Shown here: one piece after another, positions 1-60,745 of the stretch
How the letters are laid out: every line of letters begins with the position of its first letter
How positions within the stretch are numbered: position 1 is the stretch's first letter
NCBI GenBank assembly: GCA_013138735.1
Contig: WTCE01000026.1
Coordinates: 1 to 64,000, forward strand
Length of the DNA: 64,000 bases
Source of the DNA: Crocinitomix sp.
GTDB taxonomy: Bacteria > Bacteroidota > Bacteroidia > Flavobacteriales_D > Crocinitomicaceae
Direction of reading: 5' to 3'
Notes under the pieces: model-generated
Told to the model about the DNA's origin: nothing
What the model saw: the letters and a program-made list of their open reading frames with translations, nothing else
The model's database searches: none
Translations under genes and position numbers: made by a program

Positions 1-105
1 TTGCAAAATTATTTGAATGAATTTTGCTACAAACTTAACCGCAGATACTTCGGGGAAAGGCTCTTTGATAGATTAACATTAGCCGTGGCTAAATCTTACT
101 GGTAA
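1..105 (+). mobile_element. 3' end of IS1595/ISXO2-like transposase (truncated by window edge)
   Basis: Frame 1 from base 1 reads LQNYLNEFCYKLNRRYFGERLFDRLTLAVAKSYW*, typical of the C-terminus of ISXO2-like transposases (YLNEFCYRxNRR...FDRLL). Not in the ORF track because it is cut by the window start. Confidence 0.7.
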
Positions 106-150
106 GAAAGCGACGAATCAATAAAAACTATATTCGAAACAATAAACCCC

Positions 151-2121
151 ATGTATATAAAAAGAATATCAATAAATAATTTTAGATTACTTAAAGACAC
201 AAATATTCAACTTGATGAAGATAAAAAGCAGGACTTAGCATTACTAATTGGAAAAAACAATACTGGTAAAACTTCATTTATCGTTTTATTTGACAAATTT
301 TTCAGAAATGAAAGCTCCAAGTTTAGTTATAACGACTTCCCTTTAACCGTAAGAGATCAAATATTAAATACTGAAGAAGGTTCACCTCCCATTTCAATAC
401 AGATGAAACTTGAAATAAGTTATTCTAAAAAGGATAATTTAGAAAATATTTCTGATTTCATCTTGGACTTAGACCCAGATGAAAACGTAGTGAAATTACT
501 TTTTAAATGCTCTATTGATATTCCTAAATTAATTAACGATTTATCATTTATCACAAAACAAAGTAATCAGGAAAGGTTTATAATAAAGAGTTTAGGAGAT
601 TACTTAGTCAACAAATATTATGCATATTATAACGAAGAAGACTTATTACCTGCAAATTCAGGGGATTTAGTAGAGAAAACTATATCGGATATTAGGAAAG
701 TGATAAACTATCAAGTTATTCATGCTAAAAGAAATGTTTCAAGTTCAGAGTCTAATGGAAGTAATAAAACCGCTTTATCAGAATTAGCCTCCAAATATTT
801 TAATAAAGAGAATTCCTTTTCGCAAGAAGCGTTTGGCAGTATCAATGATACAATCTTAGAAATGGATGAGACTTTAAACGAACAATACAAAACACATTTT
901 AAAGATTATTTTGATAATGTAAAAGAATTCATTGATGAAGGAAAAGGTGAGCTAAATGTTATTTCAAATTTAGAATCAAAGGAAGTTTTATCAAATCATT
1001 CTAAGGTAGTTTATGGTAATTCCCATAGTTATTTACCAGAGAATCAAAATGGACTAGGGCATTTAAATATTCTCTTTTTATTATTACAAATAGAGATTAA
1101 AAGAAAACTTTTCGAACAGGAAAATAAAGATATTAATCTATTATTCATAGAAGAGCCTGAAGCACATACGCACCCACAGATGCAATATGTTTTTGCAAAA
1201 AGGATTAAAGATATTTTAAAGAAGATTCCAAATTCACAAACGTTTATAACCTCACATTCATCACACATTGTGTCCCAATGTGAATTTGAAGATATTCGAT
1301 ATTTTAAAGTAATTGACAACAATGTATTAATCAAGAATTTTCATAAAGAACTTAAAGAAAAGTATACTTCAACACCTGAACATTTTAAATTTATAAAACA
1401 ATATTTGACTCTTTATACTTCGGAACTATTTTTTGCGGAAAAGATAATTTTTATTGAAGGCTTATCTGAAAAACTTCTTTTGCCCTATTTTATTCAACAG
1501 TACGACAAATCCAGAAAAACAGAAAAGGATTATATACCTCTCACTTCAAAAAACATATCTTTTGTAGAAGTTGGAGCTAATGCAAAGGCATTTCGCCATT
1601 TTATAGAATTCTTAGATATTAAAACTTTGATATTTACGGATATTGATACGACGAAGTACAATACAGATAAAAAAAGATGGAAAGCTTGCTCTGTACAAGA
1701 TGCAGAAAATAGCAGTAACACATCAATAAAGTATTATTTAGATGCTCCAGACGAAGAACCAACAAAAAAAGAGTTTATAGATTGGCTTGCAAAACTTAAG
1801 AAGAACACCACCACCTCAATAAGCAATAAAGTAAATATATCCTATCAACTAGAAGAGAATGGTTATCATGGAAGAAGTTTTGAAGATGCTTTTGTTTGTG
1901 TTAATCTAAATCTGTTAATAGAACAGAAGGTGAAAATTTTAGGTCTTAAAAACATTAATGAACTCAAAGATAGTAAAGCAGATTTTTATGAATTAACAGA
2001 AAGTATTTTAGATAAAAAATCAGATTTTGCTTCATCAATATTATACTTAGCATTAACTGAAGACATTAAATGGAAAACGCCTAGTTATATTGTAGAAGGT
2101 TTAAAATGGATATCAGAATGA
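151..2121 (+). CDS. gajA: OLD-family ATP-dependent nuclease (AAA ATPase + TOPRIM), GajA-like
   Basis: Walker A LLIGKNNTGKTS, Walker B LLFIEEPEAHTHPQMQ, TOPRIM glutamate IFIEGLSEKLLLPYF and DxD (IFTDIDTTKY); followed directly by a UvrD-like helicase. Confidence 0.8.
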   Translation: MYIKRISINNFRLLKDTNIQLDEDKKQDLALLIGKNNTGKTSFIVLFDKFFRNESSKFSYNDFPLTVRDQILNTEEGSPPISIQMKLEISYSKKDNLENISDFILDLDPDENVVKLLFKCSIDIPKLINDLSFITKQSNQERFIIKSLGDYLVNKYYAYYNEEDLLPANSGDLVEKTISDIRKVINYQVIHAKRNVSSSESNGSNKTALSELASKYFNKENSFSQEAFGSINDTILEMDETLNEQYKTHFKDYFDNVKEFIDEGKGELNVISNLESKEVLSNHSKVVYGNSHSYLPENQNGLGHLNILFLLLQIEIKRKLFEQENKDINLLFIEEPEAHTHPQMQYVFAKRIKDILKKIPNSQTFITSHSSHIVSQCEFEDIRYFKVIDNNVLIKNFHKELKEKYTSTPEHFKFIKQYLTLYTSELFFAEKIIFIEGLSEKLLLPYFIQQYDKSRKTEKDYIPLTSKNISFVEVGANAKAFRHFIEFLDIKTLIFTDIDTTKYNTDKKRWKACSVQDAENSSNTSIKYYLDAPDEEPTKKEFIDWLAKLKKNTTTSISNKVNISYQLEENGYHGRSFEDAFVCVNLNLLIEQKVKILGLKNINELKDSKADFYELTESILDKKSDFASSILYLALTEDIKWKTPSYIVEGLKWISE

Positions 2122-4103
2122 GCGTAGCTATTGAAAAAATGAAAAAAATTATTGACCTCAATGTAAAAGAGGATGGAGATTTTAAAAACTTCGTATTACA
2201 AGGAGGAGCTGGTAGTGGAAAAACAGAATCATTAAAGGAAATAATTTCATATGTTTCTAATAAATATCCATCAAAAAAAATAGCATGTATTACACTAACT
2301 AATGCAGCTAGTGATGAAATTAAATCTCGTATTGGTCATAATGACAACTTCACTTTTAGTACAATTCATTCATTTTTAGATTCACTAGTTAAAGATTATA
2401 AAAAAAACATTAAAGAAGTTATTCATCATGTTTTTTGTCTAAAAAAAATTGAAACTCAAATACACAAAGATTATAAATCTATACATGAGAAATTCTCTAA
2501 AAAGTTATTTTCCATAGAAGAAATAAATACAGAAAAAGTAATTGGAAAAAGAGATTATGATAAATCTCCTTCTGTCTACAACACAGAAATAAATGATAAA
2601 ATTGATACTCTTAATGAAAAAATAATTCAACTTATTGACTCAAAACCATATAAAGATATAGAGTATAATTTAACAAGATTTGATTCTTTTAAAAACTTAG
2701 GCTTTTCACATAAATCATTAATTACTGTTTCACATGAATTGTGTTTAAAATTTGATTTATTACCTAAAATCATTAGTGATAAATACGATTATATTTTTAT
2801 TGACGAATATCAAGACACAAGTGAGTTCGTTATAAACATATTTCTAAATCTTTTACCTAAGAATAATAAAACGACTCTTGGTCTATTCGGAGATTCAATG
2901 CAAGGTATTTATGATGATGGAATTGGTGATATTAAAAAACATATTGAAATTGGTAGCGTTGTAAAAATTAACAAAGAAGATAATTATAGATGCTCAAAAG
3001 AGGTCATAGATTTTATCAATGTAATTAGGACTGATGAAATAGAGCAAAAACTAGCCTTAAAACGAGAGGAAACGAAAAATCATAGAGCAGGTAGTGTTAG
3101 TTTGCATTATAGTATATGTGGTAAAAAACCTAATGCATTTAGTAAACGAGAAGTAAAAAAAGAGTACTTATCTAAGTTAAATAACTTAATCACTTTAACA
3201 AAGAAAGAATTCAATCAACCTAATACTAAAATATTAATGTTAACGAATAAATCTATTTCTCTAGAAATGGGTTTTGTGAATTTATATAATATTTTCAGTG
3301 CCAGATTCACGGAGGTTAAAGACGATATTGAAAAAGAGTTTTCTAAAATTCAAATAAGTGACATAATAAATTTGTGCAAATTATATTCTTCAAAAAAATA
3401 TAATCCGCTAATTGTTTATCTCAAAAAAAATGGTTTTATAATAAAATCATTTGAAGACAAAAAGAAAATAAGCCAACACTTTGAATATTTATTGAACACT
3501 AAGCTAAATCTTCAGCAAGTCTTGGATTATTGTTTTAAAAACAAATTGATTAAAAAGTCTGAAGGTTTTAAATATTACTTTAACAGAAAAATTGGTTTTT
3601 TAAAAGAGTATGACAGTAATTCTAATTATCAAAAACTCGAAAAACTATTCATAAGTGGGAGTAATACTCCAAAACGTTTAATGGAAAATCATGATATAGA
3701 AATATCTGTTGAAAAGTTTGATGAATTTTATAAAGCTTTAAAAAAGAAAACATTTTACATAGATTTATTTTCTGACAAGTTAGATTTTCAAGAAGTCGTA
3801 AATTATTACAGTTATTTAAACGAAGAAGAAGAAACCGAATACATAACCATGCATAAAACCAAGGGTTCAGGAATAGAAAATGTTATGGTCGTTCTTGACG
3901 AATATTTTTGGAATAAATACAACTTTAAAAGTATCTATGATACATCTATAGAAAATGAAAAAAGACATAAGAATCAAAAACTTTTCTACGTAGCATCATC
4001 AAGAACTATAAAGAATTTAGCTATTGTAAGAATGATTGAAGATGAAAAAGAAGAAGTAATTATGAAAGACTATTTTAAGTATTGTAAAATAAATAAAGTT
4101 TGA
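2118..4103 (+). CDS. gajB: UvrD/Rep-like helicase, GajB-like
   Basis: Walker A LQGGAGSGKTES, motif II YIFIDEYQDTSE, motif III GLFGDSMQGIYD, motif V MHKTKGSGIENVMVV, motif VI LFYVASSR. Track start is 2106; ATG at 2118 gives a 4-nt ATGA overlap with the upstream gene. Confidence 0.8.
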   Translation: MSVAIEKMKKIIDLNVKEDGDFKNFVLQGGAGSGKTESLKEIISYVSNKYPSKKIACITLTNAASDEIKSRIGHNDNFTFSTIHSFLDSLVKDYKKNIKEVIHHVFCLKKIETQIHKDYKSIHEKFSKKLFSIEEINTEKVIGKRDYDKSPSVYNTEINDKIDTLNEKIIQLIDSKPYKDIEYNLTRFDSFKNLGFSHKSLITVSHELCLKFDLLPKIISDKYDYIFIDEYQDTSEFVINIFLNLLPKNNKTTLGLFGDSMQGIYDDGIGDIKKHIEIGSVVKINKEDNYRCSKEVIDFINVIRTDEIEQKLALKREETKNHRAGSVSLHYSICGKKPNAFSKREVKKEYLSKLNNLITLTKKEFNQPNTKILMLTNKSISLEMGFVNLYNIFSARFTEVKDDIEKEFSKIQISDIINLCKLYSSKKYNPLIVYLKKNGFIIKSFEDKKKISQHFEYLLNTKLNLQQVLDYCFKNKLIKKSEGFKYYFNRKIGFLKEYDSNSNYQKLEKLFISGSNTPKRLMENHDIEISVEKFDEFYKALKKKTFYIDLFSDKLDFQEVVNYYSYLNEEEETEYITMHKTKGSGIENVMVVLDEYFWNKYNFKSIYDTSIENEKRHKNQKLFYVASSRTIKNLAIVRMIEDEKEEVIMKDYFKYCKINKV

Positions 4104-4104
4104 A

Positions 4105-4257
4105 AATCCCACGCTCCCCTGCGTCCCGATAGCTATCAAGAGTATCGCTTGGTAAAAGTCAAACCGCACACAACCTAATTCAAATAACAATACCGTTCCA
4201 AAATCAATAAAAGCGTAAGCAGCCATATAATCCCACTATAGCGAAGAGACATTGCAT
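4105..4257 (+). repeat. Copy A of a ~150-bp direct repeat containing GATAGCTATC and ending ...TATAGCGAAG
   Basis: Shares ccgttccaaaa(t/a)caataaaagcgta(a/c)gca...atataatcccac(t/g)(a/g)tagcgaa with 4545-4690. Confidence 0.7.
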
Positions 4258-4544: not shown

Positions 4545-4690
4545 ATTTCCGCATGCTCCCGCGCGCGTTGATAGCTATCGGGAGTATCGGTTGCGAAGGC
4601 CAAATCGCAGACAATCTGTGTTACATAGCAATCCGTTCCAAAAACAATAAAAGCGTACGCACGCGATATAATCCCACGGTAGCGAAAACT
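4545..4690 (+). repeat. Copy B of the ~150-bp direct repeat
   Basis: See copy A at 4105-4257. Confidence 0.7.
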
Positions 4691-8726: not shown

Positions 8727-10010
8727 ATGAACGATATCATCTGCCCCAACTGCAATAAAGCCTTCAAAATAGACGAAGCTGGCTTCGCAGACATCCTCAA
8801 ACAAGTGCGCGATCATCAATTTGAAGAAGAATTGCAAAACCGCTTAAACTTGGCAGAAAAAGAAAAGTTAAATGCGGTTCAATTGGCTGAGGCGAAACTT
8901 AAAAATTCATTACAAGAAGATTTTGCGAAAAAGGATAAAGAAATAGCTGAACTGAAAGCTAAAAACGAACGCGAATTAGGAGAGAAATTAGCAAAAAAGG
9001 AAGCGGAGATCGCTGAAATGAGATCAAAAATCAGCAATGCAGAAATTGAGAAAAAATTGCAAGTAACAGAGGCCGTCAGAGCAATTGAAAAAGAGCGTGA
9101 CAACCTTGCAAATGATTTAAAAATAAAAGAAACGGAGAAGGCATTATTAGAAAAATCGATCAACGAAAAATTTACCGACAAGCTAAAGGTAAAGGACGAC
9201 ACCATCAAAATGAAGGATGATGAAATTGATCGTTTAAAAGACTTTAAATTGAAGCTTTCTACAAAAATGATTGGCGAAACATTGGAACAACATTGTGAAG
9301 CTGAATTCAACAAATTGCGTGCAACCGCTTTTCAGAATGCCTATTTTGAAAAAGACAACAATTCAAGCGGTGGAACAAAAGGTGATTTCATTTACAGTGA
9401 AAAAGACGAAGCAGGCAATGAAATCATTTCAATTATGTTTGAAATGAAGAATGAGAATGACGAAACGGCTACCAAAAAGCGAAATGAAGATTTTTTCGCA
9501 AAACTAGACAAAGACCGCACAGATAAAAAATGTGAATATGCTGTGCTAGTTTCACTACTCGAGTCAGAAAATGAATTCTATAATACAGGAATTGTTGATG
9601 TATCTTATAAATACAAGAAAATGTATGTGGTGCGTCCGCAATTTTTCATTCCTATTATCACACTTTTGCGCAATGCGGCAATGAATTCTATGCAATACAA
9701 AGCAGAGCTAAACTTGATGAAAAATCAAAGTGTGGACATCACCAATTTTGAGGAAAAAATAAACACATTTAAAGAAGGGTTTGCAAAAAATTACGACCTA
9801 GCTAGTCGTAAATTTCATATTGCTATTGTGGAAATTGATAAGACCATTAGTCATCTACAAAAAACTAAAGACGCCTTGTTATCATCAGAGAATAACCTGC
9901 GTTTGGCCAATAACAAAGCGGATGATTTAACGATCAAAAAATTAACCCACGGAAATCCTACAATGAAATCTAAATTTGATGGACTTTCAGGTGAGGGTGG
10001 TGAGGAATAA
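8727..10010 (+). CDS. DUF2130 domain-containing coiled-coil protein
   Basis: N-terminal CPNCNKAF zinc-ribbon-like motif, long coiled coil, then [16 protein letters not shown]...[11 protein letters not shown]...[26 protein letters not shown], typical of DUF2130. Confidence 0.75.
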
Positions 10011-13323: not shown

Positions 13324-13938
13324 TTAATCCATTGACATAATTACCGCTCCATTCTCATCCATTTCAAATTCAAACTCATAATAGTTTGTTACAACATCTC
13401 TCCCTTCTATATGATCGTTTTCCCCTTCAAGTAAACAATTTAAAATAAAGGTGTCAGCACGCTTATTATCCTCAAATTCGATCTGATACTCATATAAACT
13501 ATGATCAACATATTCAGAAGAGATAAGGCTTTTAGCCGTTTCAATATTCTTTTCAATCAAGTTGAAATCGATATCACTAATTTTTTTTGGCTCGTTTTTT
13601 TTATGTACTCGGACAGAGAACTCACTATCAATTATTGAAATATTTGGTTCACCTTCTTGCGTTAATTGGAAATCTATCCGATTCAAGGTTTCTTCTTGCG
13701 CCTCATCACTTGTTACAATGCTAATTGCATCCATTGACGTTTCTAACTCTGTCTGTGATGTCAATCTAATTTCATAGGCCAATACGTCTCCTGCGGCAGC
13801 TATAATTTCCTTTTTAACTTCGGCTATCTCACCTGGTTTATCTAAATCATAGATACTTTCTTTATTGCCGCAAGCTGCTAATGCAATTAAAACTCCTATT
13901 GAAAGAAATATTTTAGTTCTTGTCTTTTCTCTTTTCAT
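13324..13938 (-). CDS. Lipoprotein, hypothetical
   Basis: MKREKTRTKIFLSIGVLIALAACGNKE lipobox; likely start 13938 (track ORF to 14022). Confidence 0.6.
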   Translation of the reverse strand: MKREKTRTKIFLSIGVLIALAACGNKESIYDLDKPGEIAEVKKEIIAAAGDVLAYEIRLTSQTELETSMDAISIVTSDEAQEETLNRIDFQLTQEGEPNISIIDSEFSVRVHKKNEPKKISDIDFNLIEKNIETAKSLISSEYVDHSLYEYQIEFEDNKRADTFILNCLLEGENDHIEGRDVVTNYYEFEFEMDENGAVIMSMD

Positions 13939-14140
13939 ATCAACTATTTTTTTGTTTTTATCAAAGGGAATGAAAAAAGAAGGAGAAAAAAAACCAAATA
14001 AGTATTCGCTCAGTACGATCAATTTTTCGTCACAAGTGAATTTGTTTTTGTTTTGAAGATTTTAACAATAAGCGTTCAATGATAAGTATTCCATTGCCGT
14101 TACAAGGGGGAAACGTTCTAGTTGCTGATCCAATTTCGGA

Positions 14141-14875
14141 TTAAAGACCTCCAAATATTTTGGCCATAATACTATCCTTTTTTCTAATCGAAACGGCTAT
14201 TTTATCACCATTTTTGAGAAATAGAAAACGGGTTTTGTCATACCTATCTATAAAAGAAATATTAACTAAATAGGATTGATGTGTTCTAACAAATGTAGCG
14301 GCAGGAAGTTGATTGACAAAGTCCTTTAAAGGCTTTGACACTACAAATTTTCGCCCGTCTGACAAAAAAAATGTTGTATAACCACTATCCGCTTTGCAAT
14401 ACATGAGGTGTTCAAAGTCAACAATTTGAAAACTGTCTTGCATTCGCAATACGATTCGATCATTTTTTCCAATAAATTGATCTTTAACAACAGTCATTCG
14501 TTCTTGCGTTTGGTTCTGCGTGATAGCCATTACTTTTTGAATGGCTTCATCTAGTTCCCCCGAATCGATTGGTTTCAAAATATAATCTACAGCTCCGCAT
14601 CTTAATGCTTTCAAAACATAATCTTCGTAAGCTGTAATAAAAATTATCTTGAAATTTATTTCTGCTATTTGATCTAAAAAGTCAAAGCCATTTCCATCTT
14701 TTAAATTGATATCTAAAAACACCAAGTCCGGAGATGTCGCCTTGCAAAGCAAAAGAGCATCTTGAACAGATTCGCTTTCACCAAGAATTGTTACTTCACT
14801 AGAAAGGTTATTAAGATTTGCTTTTAAAGCTTCTCTTGCATATGCCTCATCTTCAATTATTATAGCTTTAATCAT
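14141..14875 (-). CDS. LytTR-family response regulator
   Basis: Receiver IKAIIIEDEAYAREAL...DLVFLDINLKDGNGFDFL; LytTR domain ...FVRTHQSYLVNISFIDRY. Confidence 0.9.
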   Translation of the reverse strand: MIKAIIIEDEAYAREALKANLNNLSSEVTILGESESVQDALLLCKATSPDLVFLDINLKDGNGFDFLDQIAEINFKIIFITAYEDYVLKALRCGAVDYILKPIDSGELDEAIQKVMAITQNQTQERMTVVKDQFIGKNDRIVLRMQDSFQIVDFEHLMYCKADSGYTTFFLSDGRKFVVSKPLKDFVNQLPAATFVRTHQSYLVNISFIDRYDKTRFLFLKNGDKIAVSIRKKDSIMAKIFGGL

Positions 14876-16556
14876 TGGTGTATGGAATTGTTAATAGTAC
14901 AATTGTTCCTTGCTCATTTTCCTTTTCTCGGTCAAAAACTACCAAGTCAGCCTTTGCTTTAAACTCTTTCGCCAGCAGTTTCATTCGTTCTGCCGTAATA
15001 GTAGTTGACAAGGATTCCTTTTTCGGAACTATTGAGGCTTCAGAAACGGTGTTTACACCAATTCCATTATCAATAATTTGGCAAATGAGCGACTGCTTCT
15101 CTAAATAAATATTAATCTTTAGATTACCCTTTCTGTCAATATTTTTAAATCCATGATCAATGGCATTTTCAACAAAAGGCTGGATCAACATTGGTGGAAT
15201 GTAGGTGTTTTCTCCATTAATATTTTCACCCACCTCAATTAAAAAATCAAAAGCTTCACTGAATCTTGCCTTTTGTAGCTCTAAATAATTCTTAATTGCT
15301 TCTAACTCATCATCAAGAGACACCACTTTATGACGCGAGTTTTGTAAAATGAGTCGAACAAGTCTGGAAAATTTGGACAAATAATTTGCAGCCGTTTCTC
15401 TTTTTCCACTAAGGATCATACCTTGAATTGTAGCTAATGAATTAAATAGAAAATGCGGCGTAATTTGTGAGCGTAAAAGCTGTTGATTGATTAGCAAATA
15501 ATCGCGACTCGTTTTAAGGTTTTTATATCTCAAATATACGAGGAGACTACCCCCAAATATGACAACAAATAGAACAATAATAATCCATATTAGAATCTGC
15601 TCACGTGATCTTTCCAATTCTTCGCTAGTAAGTACTATTCTAGTTTTTAGGTTATCCTCTCGATCATAAGAATTTTTAAGATCTTGTATTTCTTGATTCA
15701 AACTTTCTTGGAAAAGAAAATTATTCAATTCCTTCATTTTTTCAACATAAACAAAGGCCGAATCAACCATTCCAAGTTTTGAATATGCAATGTAATAGTT
15801 TTGAAAAACTAATTCATAAACGGGATTATTTTCATCTAATTCTACTCTTGCTGCCGTATCAAGATAAATTAATGCCGTTTCGAAATCATTTAATTCCACG
15901 TAAGACGAAGATAAATTTGAATAACAAAGTACTTTTCCATAATTATCGCCATCAGCTTTAAAAGAAAGCGATTGTTTTGTGCAATAAATGCTTGAATCTA
16001 AATCACCTTTTTCAGCATAAATAATGGCGAAATTCGTGAAATATTCACCCTGTCTTCGATCAGCTACAATTGCGTCATAATCTATCTTACTGTAAATTTC
16101 ATAAGCTAATTCATTCTCGTCATTTTCATGACGAAACAATCCTAGCAGCAAATTCAGATAGGCAATTCCCATTGAATCGCTTTCACTATAGTGTCGAAGC
16201 GTAAATTGAGCAGATTCAATGCCTCCCTCAAAGTCTTTAAGGAAATATAAATTCTCTGTTTTATATCGAGAGGCTTTTATAATGTTTGTTGTATCGTTTT
16301 TTTCCAAAGATTTATGAAGCCATTTTTCTGAATACATTAGACCATTCTTAAAATCTCCCATTGCCATGTAGGCATAAATCAAATATACATAATCCGAAGG
16401 CTTACAAATTGGCATATCAATAATTGGCACTAAGCCTTCAACTATAGGTTCGAATTTACCTTGCGCTGCTAATTCAATCACAATTTCTTCTCGATCCTTT
16501 GAGTAGCAATTAAATCCGACAAATAGAAATAATATGAAATGGAATCTAGCTAACAT
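14868..16556 (-). CDS. LytS/YehU-like sensor histidine kinase with TPR repeats
   Basis: LLRSQITPHFLFNSLATIQGMI (His_kinase), IPPMLIQPFVENAIDHGF; overlaps the regulator gene by 8 nt. Confidence 0.9.
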   Translation of the reverse strand: MLARFHFILFLFVGFNCYSKDREEIVIELAAQGKFEPIVEGLVPIIDMPICKPSDYVYLIYAYMAMGDFKNGLMYSEKWLHKSLEKNDTTNIIKASRYKTENLYFLKDFEGGIESAQFTLRHYSESDSMGIAYLNLLLGLFRHENDENELAYEIYSKIDYDAIVADRRQGEYFTNFAIIYAEKGDLDSSIYCTKQSLSFKADGDNYGKVLCYSNLSSSYVELNDFETALIYLDTAARVELDENNPVYELVFQNYYIAYSKLGMVDSAFVYVEKMKELNNFLFQESLNQEIQDLKNSYDREDNLKTRIVLTSEELERSREQILIWIIIVLFVVIFGGSLLVYLRYKNLKTSRDYLLINQQLLRSQITPHFLFNSLATIQGMILSGKRETAANYLSKFSRLVRLILQNSRHKVVSLDDELEAIKNYLELQKARFSEAFDFLIEVGENINGENTYIPPMLIQPFVENAIDHGFKNIDRKGNLKINIYLEKQSLICQIIDNGIGVNTVSEASIVPKKESLSTTITAERMKLLAKEFKAKADLVVFDREKENEQGTIVLLTIPYTND

Positions 16557-16817
16557 TAATTAAAAATTTTATTTAAATAAAGTGTTATTTATGTTGAACA
16601 AACCTCAAATGGTTCATAAACATAACCGATTCTTTAATTTGCTCTCAAGATGTTTATAATATTTCGATTTTCAAATTCTTAGGTTGCTTATTTCAATAAA
16701 GCATTACTATCGCTACGTTGCAGTATAAGCGTTATCATAGATACTATAGCAATCTAAGCAAGAGAAGAATCTTGTTTATAACTAAGGTAAGGTACTATCG
16801 TTTAAAAAAAACAACTT

Positions 16818-17216
16818 TCAAACATTACACTCCACACACAAACCCGTCGCTTGAATTTCTAGTTGATCAATTTGATAACCGGGTAAAACAATCGCCGGAA
16901 ATGGATCTACCTCCACACAAAAAATAGTGCTGCATTGCTTGCATTTAAAATGAACATGTTGATGATTATGTGTCACCTGGTCACAATCACGGCAAATTGC
17001 ATAATTCGATTCTTCGCCACTAATTGTAATTTCATGAATGATTCCTTTTTCTAAAAAAATTTTAATGGTACGGTATAAAGTTATACGGTTATAACCCTCT
17101 AACGCCTTCTCAATCGTTGAAAGTGGAATAGCATTTTCATGTTGACAAAAAATTGCCAAAACTTCCTTTCTGAAAGGTGTTTTACTTAATTTTTTATCAG
17201 CTAATAAATCTTTCAT
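16818..17216 (-). CDS. Fur-family metalloregulator (Fur/Zur type)
   Basis: MKDLLADKKLSKTPFRKEVLAIF...NRITLYRTIKIFLEKGIIHEI...YAICRDCDQVTHNHQHVHFKCKQC...GLCVEC; track ORF to 17273 would start inside the operator, so 17216 is the likelier start. Confidence 0.85.
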   Translation of the reverse strand: MKDLLADKKLSKTPFRKEVLAIFCQHENAIPLSTIEKALEGYNRITLYRTIKIFLEKGIIHEITISGEESNYAICRDCDQVTHNHQHVHFKCKQCSTIFCVEVDPFPAIVLPGYQIDQLEIQATGLCVECNV

Positions 17217-17227
17217 AAAAAAACTAA

Positions 17228-17244
17228 TTGCAACAATGTTGCAA
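17228..17244. promoter_or_regulatory. Candidate Fur-family operator 1
   Basis: Perfect inverted repeat TTGCAACA-A-TGTTGCAA. Confidence 0.7.
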
Positions 17245-17264
17245 TTATCTAAATTCATGTATAT

Positions 17265-17281
17265 TTGCAACATTGTTACAA
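17265..17281. promoter_or_regulatory. Candidate Fur-family operator 2
   Basis: TTGCAACA-T-TGTTACAA, near-identical to operator 1, 37 bp downstream. Confidence 0.7.
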
Positions 17282-17295
17282 ATATAAGGGATTGA

Positions 17296-19515
17296 ATGAA
17301 AAAGAGTATTGGAATAGCGCTTATTTTATTGGTATCGATTGGTACGTTTGGTCAGACATTTACTGGCACAGTGCTTCATAGCCAAACAAACGCCCCACTT
17401 GAAGGCGCTCAAATCTATTTTACCGATTTAAAAACGGGAACAGAAACTGACGAAAGCGGAATCTTTCTAATACAAGATCTCCAACAAAAAAGCCTTCACA
17501 TCCAAATTACGCTGGATGGGTATAATATGATCGAGGAGTTCATCAACCTTGAAGCAACAAGCGCAAAAACATTTCACTTAGAAAAGGGTCATTTTGAACT
17601 TGATGAAGTCATAGTGTCCGCACCAAAAACAAGGTTACAAGGTGAAAACATTGTGAATATTACACATAAAAAAATGGCCGAATTACAGCAATCCGGCCCG
17701 CTAACGTTGGCCGAAGCGATAAGCTCAATTCCTGGAGTGGAGCAAACTACCACCGGCGCAGGAATTGGAAAACCCGTGATTAGAGGTTTATCTGGCAATA
17801 GAATTGTCACCTATTCGCAGGGCATCCGAATTGAAAATCAACAATGGGGAGATGAACATGGTTTGGGAGTTGGTGAAGTTGGAATTGAAAGTGTTGAAGT
17901 GATTAAAGGTCCCGCTTCTTTACTTTATGGATCAGATGCACTAGGTGGTGTTCTTTATTTTAATGACGAACGTTACGCCAGTCAAAACACAATTGAAGGA
18001 TTTGCTCAAACGCAATTTCTTTCGAATACATTAGGATCTAAAAATAGCCTTGGTTTTAAAATTCACAAAGGCAAACTCAAATTCAACCTCTTTGGCGCCT
18101 ACTCTTCCCAGGCCGATTATCAAACTCCCAGTTTTGACCGTGTCTATAATACACGCTTTGATGAAAAAAATGCAAAGGCAGCTTTAGGTTTTAATACCAG
18201 CTCTTGGATTTCAAATATTCGTTATAGCTATTTGCAGAATAATTATGGAATTATAGAAGACAGTTCCTATACCAATGATGCCGATCGCAACTTCATCATC
18301 CCTTTTCAAACCATTGACAATCATAATGTGAGTTTTGAGAATATTATTTTTGCAAAAAAATCAAAATTGAATTTGACTTTGGGTTATACCAATAACTACC
18401 GCAAAGAATTTGAAGAAGATGCTACGGAACAGGCTTTAGGTCTTTATTTAAACACCTTTACCTATAATTTTAAATGGCATTCTCCTACTTTCAAAAAACG
18501 ATTCGACTTTATTGTTGGTTCGCAAGGAATGGCGCAGCAAAATAAAAATAATGGCGAAGAGGTTCTAATTCCAGATGCTGCCACAAACGATTATGGTGCT
18601 TTTTTCATTGGAAACGGCAACTTTGATAAACTGCAATTTCAAGCAGGAATGCGCGCAGATTATCGCGAAATTGACACCAAAGAAATGCTCACGGACGAAG
18701 GTTCATTTCCTGCACTGAATCGATCCTTTAAAGGATTGACTTATTCGGGCGGTGCAGTTTACAAACTCAAAAAAATCAAATTTAGAGCAAATGTTTCAAA
18801 TGGTTTTCGTGCGCCCAATACCACTGAATTATTATCAAACGGTGTGCACCACGGAACCAATCGTTACATTAAAGGAGCTTCAAATTTGATCAATGAAAAG
18901 GCGACTCAAACCGATTTTTCTGTCGACTATCAAAATGATCACCTTGCTTTTTCCATTAATGCATTTTACAATAACATTCAAGACTATATCTTTCTTTCCC
19001 CAACAAATGACGTGTTAGATGGTAGTCCTGTTTTTGAATATTTACAAACGGATGCCTATTTGTACGGCGGAGAAGTTGGTTTCCATTATCATCCACATAA
19101 AATACATTGGCTGCACTTAGAAAGTAATCTTTCTACGGTTATTGCTGAAGATAAGGCTGGAAATTCGCTCCCATTAATTCCGCAAACTAAAATTAGTTCC
19201 ACTGCGCGGGCGAACTTTACTGGTGATGGCAAATTGCAATTGAAAAACATTTTTGTGCAGCATATTTACAAATTTCAACAAGATAGAATTGGTCTTTTTG
19301 AAACAGCAACCAATGATTATCACCTCATCAATGCAGGTTTGAGTCTTGAAGTTGCAAGCAAGAACAATCCCATTGAAATTTCTGCAGGTGTTAAGAATGC
19401 GCTCAACACTTCTTATATCGATCATCTTTCAAGATTTAAACCAATGGGGATTCAAAATCAGGGAATTAATTTTTATATTGGGGTAAAGGTGAAGTTGGAG
19501 AAAAAATTAAAATAA
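17296..19515 (+). CDS. TonB-dependent receptor with carboxypeptidase-like regulatory domain (likely metal uptake)
   Basis: Signal peptide, FTGTVLHSQTNAPLEGAQIYF, plug LAEAISSIPGVEQTTTGAGIGKPVIRGLSGNRI...VEVIKGPASLLYGSDALGGVLYF. Confidence 0.9.
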   Translation: MKKSIGIALILLVSIGTFGQTFTGTVLHSQTNAPLEGAQIYFTDLKTGTETDESGIFLIQDLQQKSLHIQITLDGYNMIEEFINLEATSAKTFHLEKGHFELDEVIVSAPKTRLQGENIVNITHKKMAELQQSGPLTLAEAISSIPGVEQTTTGAGIGKPVIRGLSGNRIVTYSQGIRIENQQWGDEHGLGVGEVGIESVEVIKGPASLLYGSDALGGVLYFNDERYASQNTIEGFAQTQFLSNTLGSKNSLGFKIHKGKLKFNLFGAYSSQADYQTPSFDRVYNTRFDEKNAKAALGFNTSSWISNIRYSYLQNNYGIIEDSSYTNDADRNFIIPFQTIDNHNVSFENIIFAKKSKLNLTLGYTNNYRKEFEEDATEQALGLYLNTFTYNFKWHSPTFKKRFDFIVGSQGMAQQNKNNGEEVLIPDAATNDYGAFFIGNGNFDKLQFQAGMRADYREIDTKEMLTDEGSFPALNRSFKGLTYSGGAVYKLKKIKFRANVSNGFRAPNTTELLSNGVHHGTNRYIKGASNLINEKATQTDFSVDYQNDHLAFSINAFYNNIQDYIFLSPTNDVLDGSPVFEYLQTDAYLYGGEVGFHYHPHKIHWLHLESNLSTVIAEDKAGNSLPLIPQTKISSTARANFTGDGKLQLKNIFVQHIYKFQQDRIGLFETATNDYHLINAGLSLEVASKNNPIEISAGVKNALNTSYIDHLSRFKPMGIQNQGINFYIGVKVKLEKKLK

Positions 19516-60301: not shown

Positions 60302-60446
60302 TCTTTTAAAAATTTAGACCAATTCAATTTTTTTTGGCCTGGTTAATAAAAAGAATAGCAACGAAGAATAAGCGCACAGAAACGTGCCACTTAACCTTTG
60401 CTTTTATCCCGAAAGCTGTGCACAAGGCACATTAGTTAATATTTGA

Positions 60447-60675
60447 GGTTGGCAGGTCTTCTGACTTACTCCTTGCGCTAAACCCTTCCCGCGTCCTTCA
60501 TTTCGACATTTCGAGAACCTCAATGGTCTTCTCAATGCGCGGACGCAGTGGTGTTGTTTAACGTTTTGGAGCTTACAGCTGCGGGAACAGTCCAAGATTT
60601 CTTTCCGTTTTTCAGGAAAGGCACTTGATTCCCATTTTAATTCTTAATTCCCAATGTTGTTAGGGATGAAACCAA
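60447..60675 (-). ncRNA. Cobalamin (AdoCbl) riboswitch
   Basis: Minus strand reads ...GGGAATCAAGTGCC...GGACTGTTCCCGCAGCTGTAAGCTCC...GTAAGTCAGAAGACCTGCC, the conserved core including the B12 box. Confidence 0.9.
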
Positions 60676-60745
60676 AACTCGGGGTAAAGGTAGTTTTTTT
60701 TTAGTCAATAGTTATTAGTCGTTAGTCATTAGATTTTTTTGTGGT

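Follow-up and report, generated by a model that had tools for sequence, protein, structure and literature searches.

A predicted Gabija anti-phage operon of a mobile clade next to an IS1595-family element in Crocinitomix sp.

Two overlapping open reading frames at the very start of a Crocinitomix sp. contig raise the question whether they form a complete Gabija anti-phage system, how they came to lie there and whether they can be expressed. The window, i.e. the whole stretch of 64,000 nucleotides that was analysed, begins at the first base of contig C26, in a genome of 6.84 Mb and 188 contigs; its left side is therefore an assembly edge. An initial annotation had described the pair as a Gabija-like module of an OLD-type ATPase/TOPRIM nuclease and a UvrD-like helicase with full catalytic motifs. 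It had further been considered as translationally coupled, AT-rich and recently acquired, with a transposase remnant upstream and degenerate repeats downstream as its borders. The following features were assigned:

1..121, + strand: right end of an IS1595-family element, with the final 34 transposase codons (stop at 103-105) and the terminal inverted repeat
122..150, + strand: gap of 29 bp from the IS end to the start of gajA, all that remains of the native 5' region
151..2121, + strand: gajA, class 2 OLD nuclease of 656 aa (PADLOC, Pfam, alignments, Foldseek)
2106..4103, + strand: gajB, UvrD/PcrA/Rep-like SF1 helicase of 665 aa (PADLOC, Pfam, alignments, Foldseek)
4110..4245, no strand: first copy of a degenerate repeat of ~135 bp, downstream of gajB
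4552..4686, no strand: second copy of this repeat, 440-442 bp beyond the first

The gajA and gajB ORFs are both complete and contain no internal stops. GajA matched the PADLOC model PDLC00065 over its full length (663 bits, E 1.5e-199). Its N-terminal ABC ATPase (residues ~1-375) was recognised by PF13175 (AAA_15, residues 1-374, 2e-51) and its C-terminal TOPRIM domain by PF20469 (OLD-like_TOPRIM, residues 427-499, 3e-13). The Walker A motif GKNNTGKTS (residues 34-42) and the TOPRIM residues E436, E440, G475 and D497xD499 were invariant in the aligned relatives (9-12 relatives). In a profile alignment, E436, E440, D497 and D499 fall on E379, E383, D432 and D434 of GajA from B. cereus (BcGajA), the catalytic roles of which are taken from the literature (PMC10781630, PMC10822852).

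An AlphaFold model of GajA with moderate confidence (pLDDT 76.5, shallow alignment) was searched against the PDB with Foldseek. BcGajA occupied the first three ranks (8u7i, 8x5i and 8sm3; E 2e-19 to 2e-17, prob 1.00), and the retron-Eco8 OLD and TsOLD ranked below it. With the wider A3 profile, BcGajA was found in second place after TsOLD with an E-value of 5e-17. It was retrieved neither by phmmer of GajA against the PDB nor by the narrower A1 profile at E<0.1. As only the wider profile and the fold search reached it, BcGajA was missed elsewhere through distance and not through absence. NCBIfam contained no matching Gabija model and its matches were far below the cut-off.

GajB likewise gave a full-length match with PADLOC (PDLC00125, 822 bits, E 1.2e-247) and was recognised by PF00580 (UvrD-helicase, 8e-24). 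Its SF1 helicase motifs are kept, with the Walker A sequence GGAGSGKT and the DEYQD box at residues 233-237 both invariant in the alignment of relatives. An extra helical segment at residues ~105-185 is restricted to its own clade. The AlphaFold model of GajB was also of moderate confidence (pLDDT 78.2), and Foldseek against the PDB listed UvrD, PcrA and Rep first, followed by BcGajB (8sm3_B/8iud) on ranks 36 and 38 with E ~1e-11. By its modelled fold, GajB thus appears nearer to UvrD/PcrA/Rep than to BcGajB. Due to the low TM-scores (only ~0.44 for GajA and ~0.3 for GajB), the fold ranks back the family and say little on the domain arrangement.

The ATGA at 2118-2121, by which the genes had been proposed to be coupled, is present, but the alignments point to the ATG at 2106 as the likelier gajB start. 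An ATG stands at the equivalent position in eight of nine relatives, across the TGG codon of the conserved GajA residue W653. The genes overlap by 16 nt, and in most of those relatives by 14-19 nt. In each of the 29 relatives whose sequence could be read beyond GajA, GajB followed immediately. The trees of both proteins contained the same clade of six rows, namely the window, Saccharicrinis, Draconibacterium, an Aliarcobacter plasmid, a Vibrio plasmid and the Pseudomonas inovirus PfAC02b. They also shared the same sister clade of nine rows, which includes a second Gabija of the same genome (C136:7109-11184). The branching order within the six-row clade differed between the GajA and GajB trees. 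The constant pairing and the agreement of the main clades indicate that the pair is an old, co-inherited unit.

Judged from its sequence, the operon is very probably a complete Gabija anti-phage system from a mobile clade, gained horizontally and encoding a predicted GajA-GajB nuclease-helicase complex. The Gabija identity rests on the two-gene anatomy, the intact active-site motifs, the family membership and the conserved pairing with broadly agreeing trees. In these points the initial annotation was borne out: protein classes and catalytic motifs were as described, and the checks by HMM, by structure prediction of GajA and by pairing in relatives all agreed with Gabija.

The Gabija system of B. 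cereus VD045 (8SM3, 8U7I, 8X5I; PMC10781630, PMC10822852, PMC8136825) likewise consists of an adjacent GajA ATPase-TOPRIM protein and GajB SF1 helicase with the same catalytic residues. The identity is about 16% in the Foldseek alignments, and the B. cereus proteins are shorter, with 578 aa for BcGajA and 494 aa for BcGajB. Compared with BcGajB, the extra segment of GajB falls within the counterpart of domain 1B, and formation of the complex is a prediction here. The system of the Pseudomonas filamentous phage PfAC02b (OR790969; PMC11878078), whose genes are annotated as GajA/GajB, belongs to the same clade and also has overlapping genes (48% identity for GajA and ~41% for GajB). Unlike the copy in the window, it is phage-borne; its link to phage resistance is statistical and not genetic (PMC11878078).

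The systems of the Aliarcobacter butzleri plasmid (NZ_CP104379), Draconibacterium and Saccharicrinis are about 50-53% identical in both proteins, with the same gene order and overlap. Their surroundings comprise genes for restriction or other defence, namely type I methylase and specificity genes in Saccharicrinis, a PDC-S37/Hhe-like helicase-nuclease in Draconibacterium, and methyltransferase and DEAD/DEAH helicase genes on the Aliarcobacter plasmid. In contrast, no recognised defence neighbour was found for the window copy in the part examined. The retron-Eco8 OLD and the class 1 OLD (TsOLD, 6P74) share the ABC ATPase and TOPRIM fold of GajA but have no GajB partner, and Eco8 is linked to a reverse transcriptase. 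Both were rejected as assignments because GajA in the window is paired with a helicase. The ORFs surrounding the operon, which on the left is cut by the contig edge, showed no reverse transcriptase.

The predicted GajA-GajB complex would attack incoming phage DNA. By analogy with other Gabija systems, where GajA assembles with GajB into a 4:4 ring (PMC10822852, PMC10781630), the two proteins would combine in the same way and the TOPRIM domain would cleave DNA under the control of ATP. Nucleotides inhibit BcGajA, which nicks DNA, and an older model proposes activation by nucleotide depletion (PMC8136825). The Gabija of PA14 keeps linear phage DNA from circularising where RecBCD does not occupy it (PMC12407980). 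If the system in the window acted like the latter, its target would be linear phage DNA ends not covered by a RecBCD/AddAB-type repair complex. Such DNA-end surveillance seems the likelier mode compared with activation by nucleotide depletion, because it comes from in vivo genetics. An open frame of RecB/AddA type (1049 aa), which like those of most control genomes scores under the recB cut-off, is encoded on contig C103, so that the partner for the DNA-end model is plausibly present in the host.

Whether the operon is expressed in this strain probably depends on its upstream region. Bases 1-121 are common to the copies of an insertion sequence; the genome contains nine other, near-identical copies, and those that reach this end diverge after base 121. 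On contig C65, one copy retains an open frame for the transposase and carries the terminal repeat TTGATTCGTCGC at both ends, i.e. with a matching left repeat, which gives an element length of ~994 bp. This near-complete copy is located at 12081-13036 of C65 (L079:3082-4037). The transposase is DDE_Tnp_IS1595 (PF12762 matches in the same genome), and the element is a simple one-gene IS of the IS1595 family. About ten near-identical copies fall at contig ends and break up the assembly. The remnant reported upstream is indeed the end of an IS1595-family transposase; however, it is no decayed remnant but an element cut by the contig edge at a collapsed repeat. The many near-identical copies suggest recent IS activity.

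The IS ends at 121 and the gajA ATG is at 151, which leaves 29 bp between them. The element would have landed there later (or would have been already present), in the same direction as gajA. A sigma-70 scan of this gap, which is not suited to Bacteroidota promoters, gave no promoter-like site. One weak Bacteroidota -7-like sequence, TATATTCG, lies at 129-136, but no TTG precedes it at the usual spacing. Expression is uncertain given this short distance, and the IS may have cut the operon off from its own promoter. Read-through is possible since transposase and gajA are co-directional. Expression in the strain therefore probably hangs on IS read-through or on a promoter created by the IS. It is also possible, if somewhat doubtful, that the Gabija operon is intact but silent here, with its promoter replaced by the element. 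The position of the IS end, the scan without a promoter-like site in the remaining 29 bp and the apparently recent IS activity are consistent with a silent operon. On the other hand, the transposase reads towards gajA, two intact ORFs argue against long silence, and the promoter scans fit Bacteroidota poorly.

Gabija is among the commonest defence systems and has been reported from about 13-15% of the genomes of prokaryotes (PMC12407980, PMC10781630); one more copy is thus ordinary. The operon is an intact Gabija of an already described type in a less studied mobile branch. It is of modest value in that it adds an uncharacterised, cross-phylum mobile Gabija branch with a larger GajB, as well as a case of an IS 29 bp upstream of a Gabija operon that it may control. 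Rather unlikely is a further idea, according to which the clade (PDLC00065/PDLC00125) is a functionally distinct Gabija subtype. The larger, UvrD-like GajB with its extra 1B-region segment might then unwind DNA in a processive manner and feed GajA instead of just gating it, and IS insertion just upstream would switch the system on or off.

The AT-richness noted initially was confirmed with a GC content of 26.4% for the operon, against a mean of 36.5% (SD 1.9%, minimum 31.4%) for 1,950-bp windows elsewhere in the window. The nearest relatives, with 48-53% identity, come from other members of the Bacteroidota, from a plasmid of Aliarcobacter and from a filamentous phage of Pseudomonas; the nearest kin span three phyla and comprise plasmids, a phage and chromosomes. 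At E<=1e-20, GajA was matched in two of 98 other near relatives, including one of the eight other members of the genus, and at E<=1e-60 in ten of 396 genomes of the phylum (own genome counted). In a collection of viral contigs, a search with the GajA alignment gave 14 loci; a scan with GajB alone gave no match. The operon is a member of a mobile clade that occurs on plasmids, in a filamentous phage and beside restriction systems, and horizontal spread of its lineage is well supported by these sequence comparisons.

Low GC, patchy occurrence and cross-phylum kin argue that the operon was probably gained horizontally. The horizontal part of the proposed recent acquisition therefore stands. Its recent date is without support, since the best identity was 53% and no close copy was present in the collections searched. 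Rfam and tRNA scans at the operon gave no match, and thus no tRNA integration site was seen there. An empty site was sought in the same genus, where conservation is limited to a DUF2130 gene with different neighbours. No such site could be read, as the contig ends on the left and the flanking order differs within the genus.

The degenerate downstream repeats of the initial annotation were found again as two copies of ~135 bp, which are 76-93% identical in blocks. Their core is the palindrome GATAGCTATC, which occurs at just three places in the genome, and no further copies of the ~135-bp repeat were found elsewhere in it at the sensitivity used. They are real and intergenic, and nothing links them to the defence system. 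That the IS and the repeats are the ends of a mobile cassette that carried Gabija in is unlikely. They do lie on either side of the operon, and the GC shift coincides with it. However, the IS is a simple ~994-bp element with one gene at about ten unrelated sites of the genome, i.e. a generic multicopy neighbour that gives no evidence of a cassette boundary. Moreover, the downstream repeat is unrelated to the IS end and was not found elsewhere in the genome, and no empty site is readable.

Finally, a role of the class 2 OLD nuclease and UvrD-like helicase in DNA repair or recombination instead of defence is highly unlikely: RecF/Rad50-like ATPases and UvrD/PcrA repair helicases are among the fold relatives, but the patchy occurrence unlike that of a housekeeping repair gene, the carriage on plasmids and filamentous phage, the restriction and other defence genes adjoining the relatives' copies and the very low GC all speak against it.

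The second Gabija on contig C136 (L030:7109-11184), from the sister clade, is diverged from the pair in the window with ~37% identity for GajA and ~29% for GajB (PADLOC PDLC00079, 766 bits; PDLC00135, 559 bits). On its flanks (L030:6041-6934 and 13578-17806), a Polbeta nucleotidyltransferase-HEPN protein is encoded upstream, and downstream follow a PADLOC match to 'Viperin-associated NERD' (135 bits) and an AAA ATPase matching PDC-M62A (132 bits). These surroundings look like a defence island.

The DUF2130 protein gene of the window (8727-10010; PF09903, 295 bits) is located 4.6 kb downstream of the operon, and the Aliarcobacter plasmid carries a DUF2130 gene 2 bp ahead of gajA. As a Gabija partner, DUF2130 was rejected because the two proteins are just 28% identical over 143 aa (E 8e-4), and with so weak a likeness coincidence is likely. 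Orthologues of the window protein in the same genus (76% identity) have no Gabija nearby. Towards the far end of the window, a cobalamin riboswitch is located at 60434-60687 on the - strand (Rfam RF00174, 74 bits).
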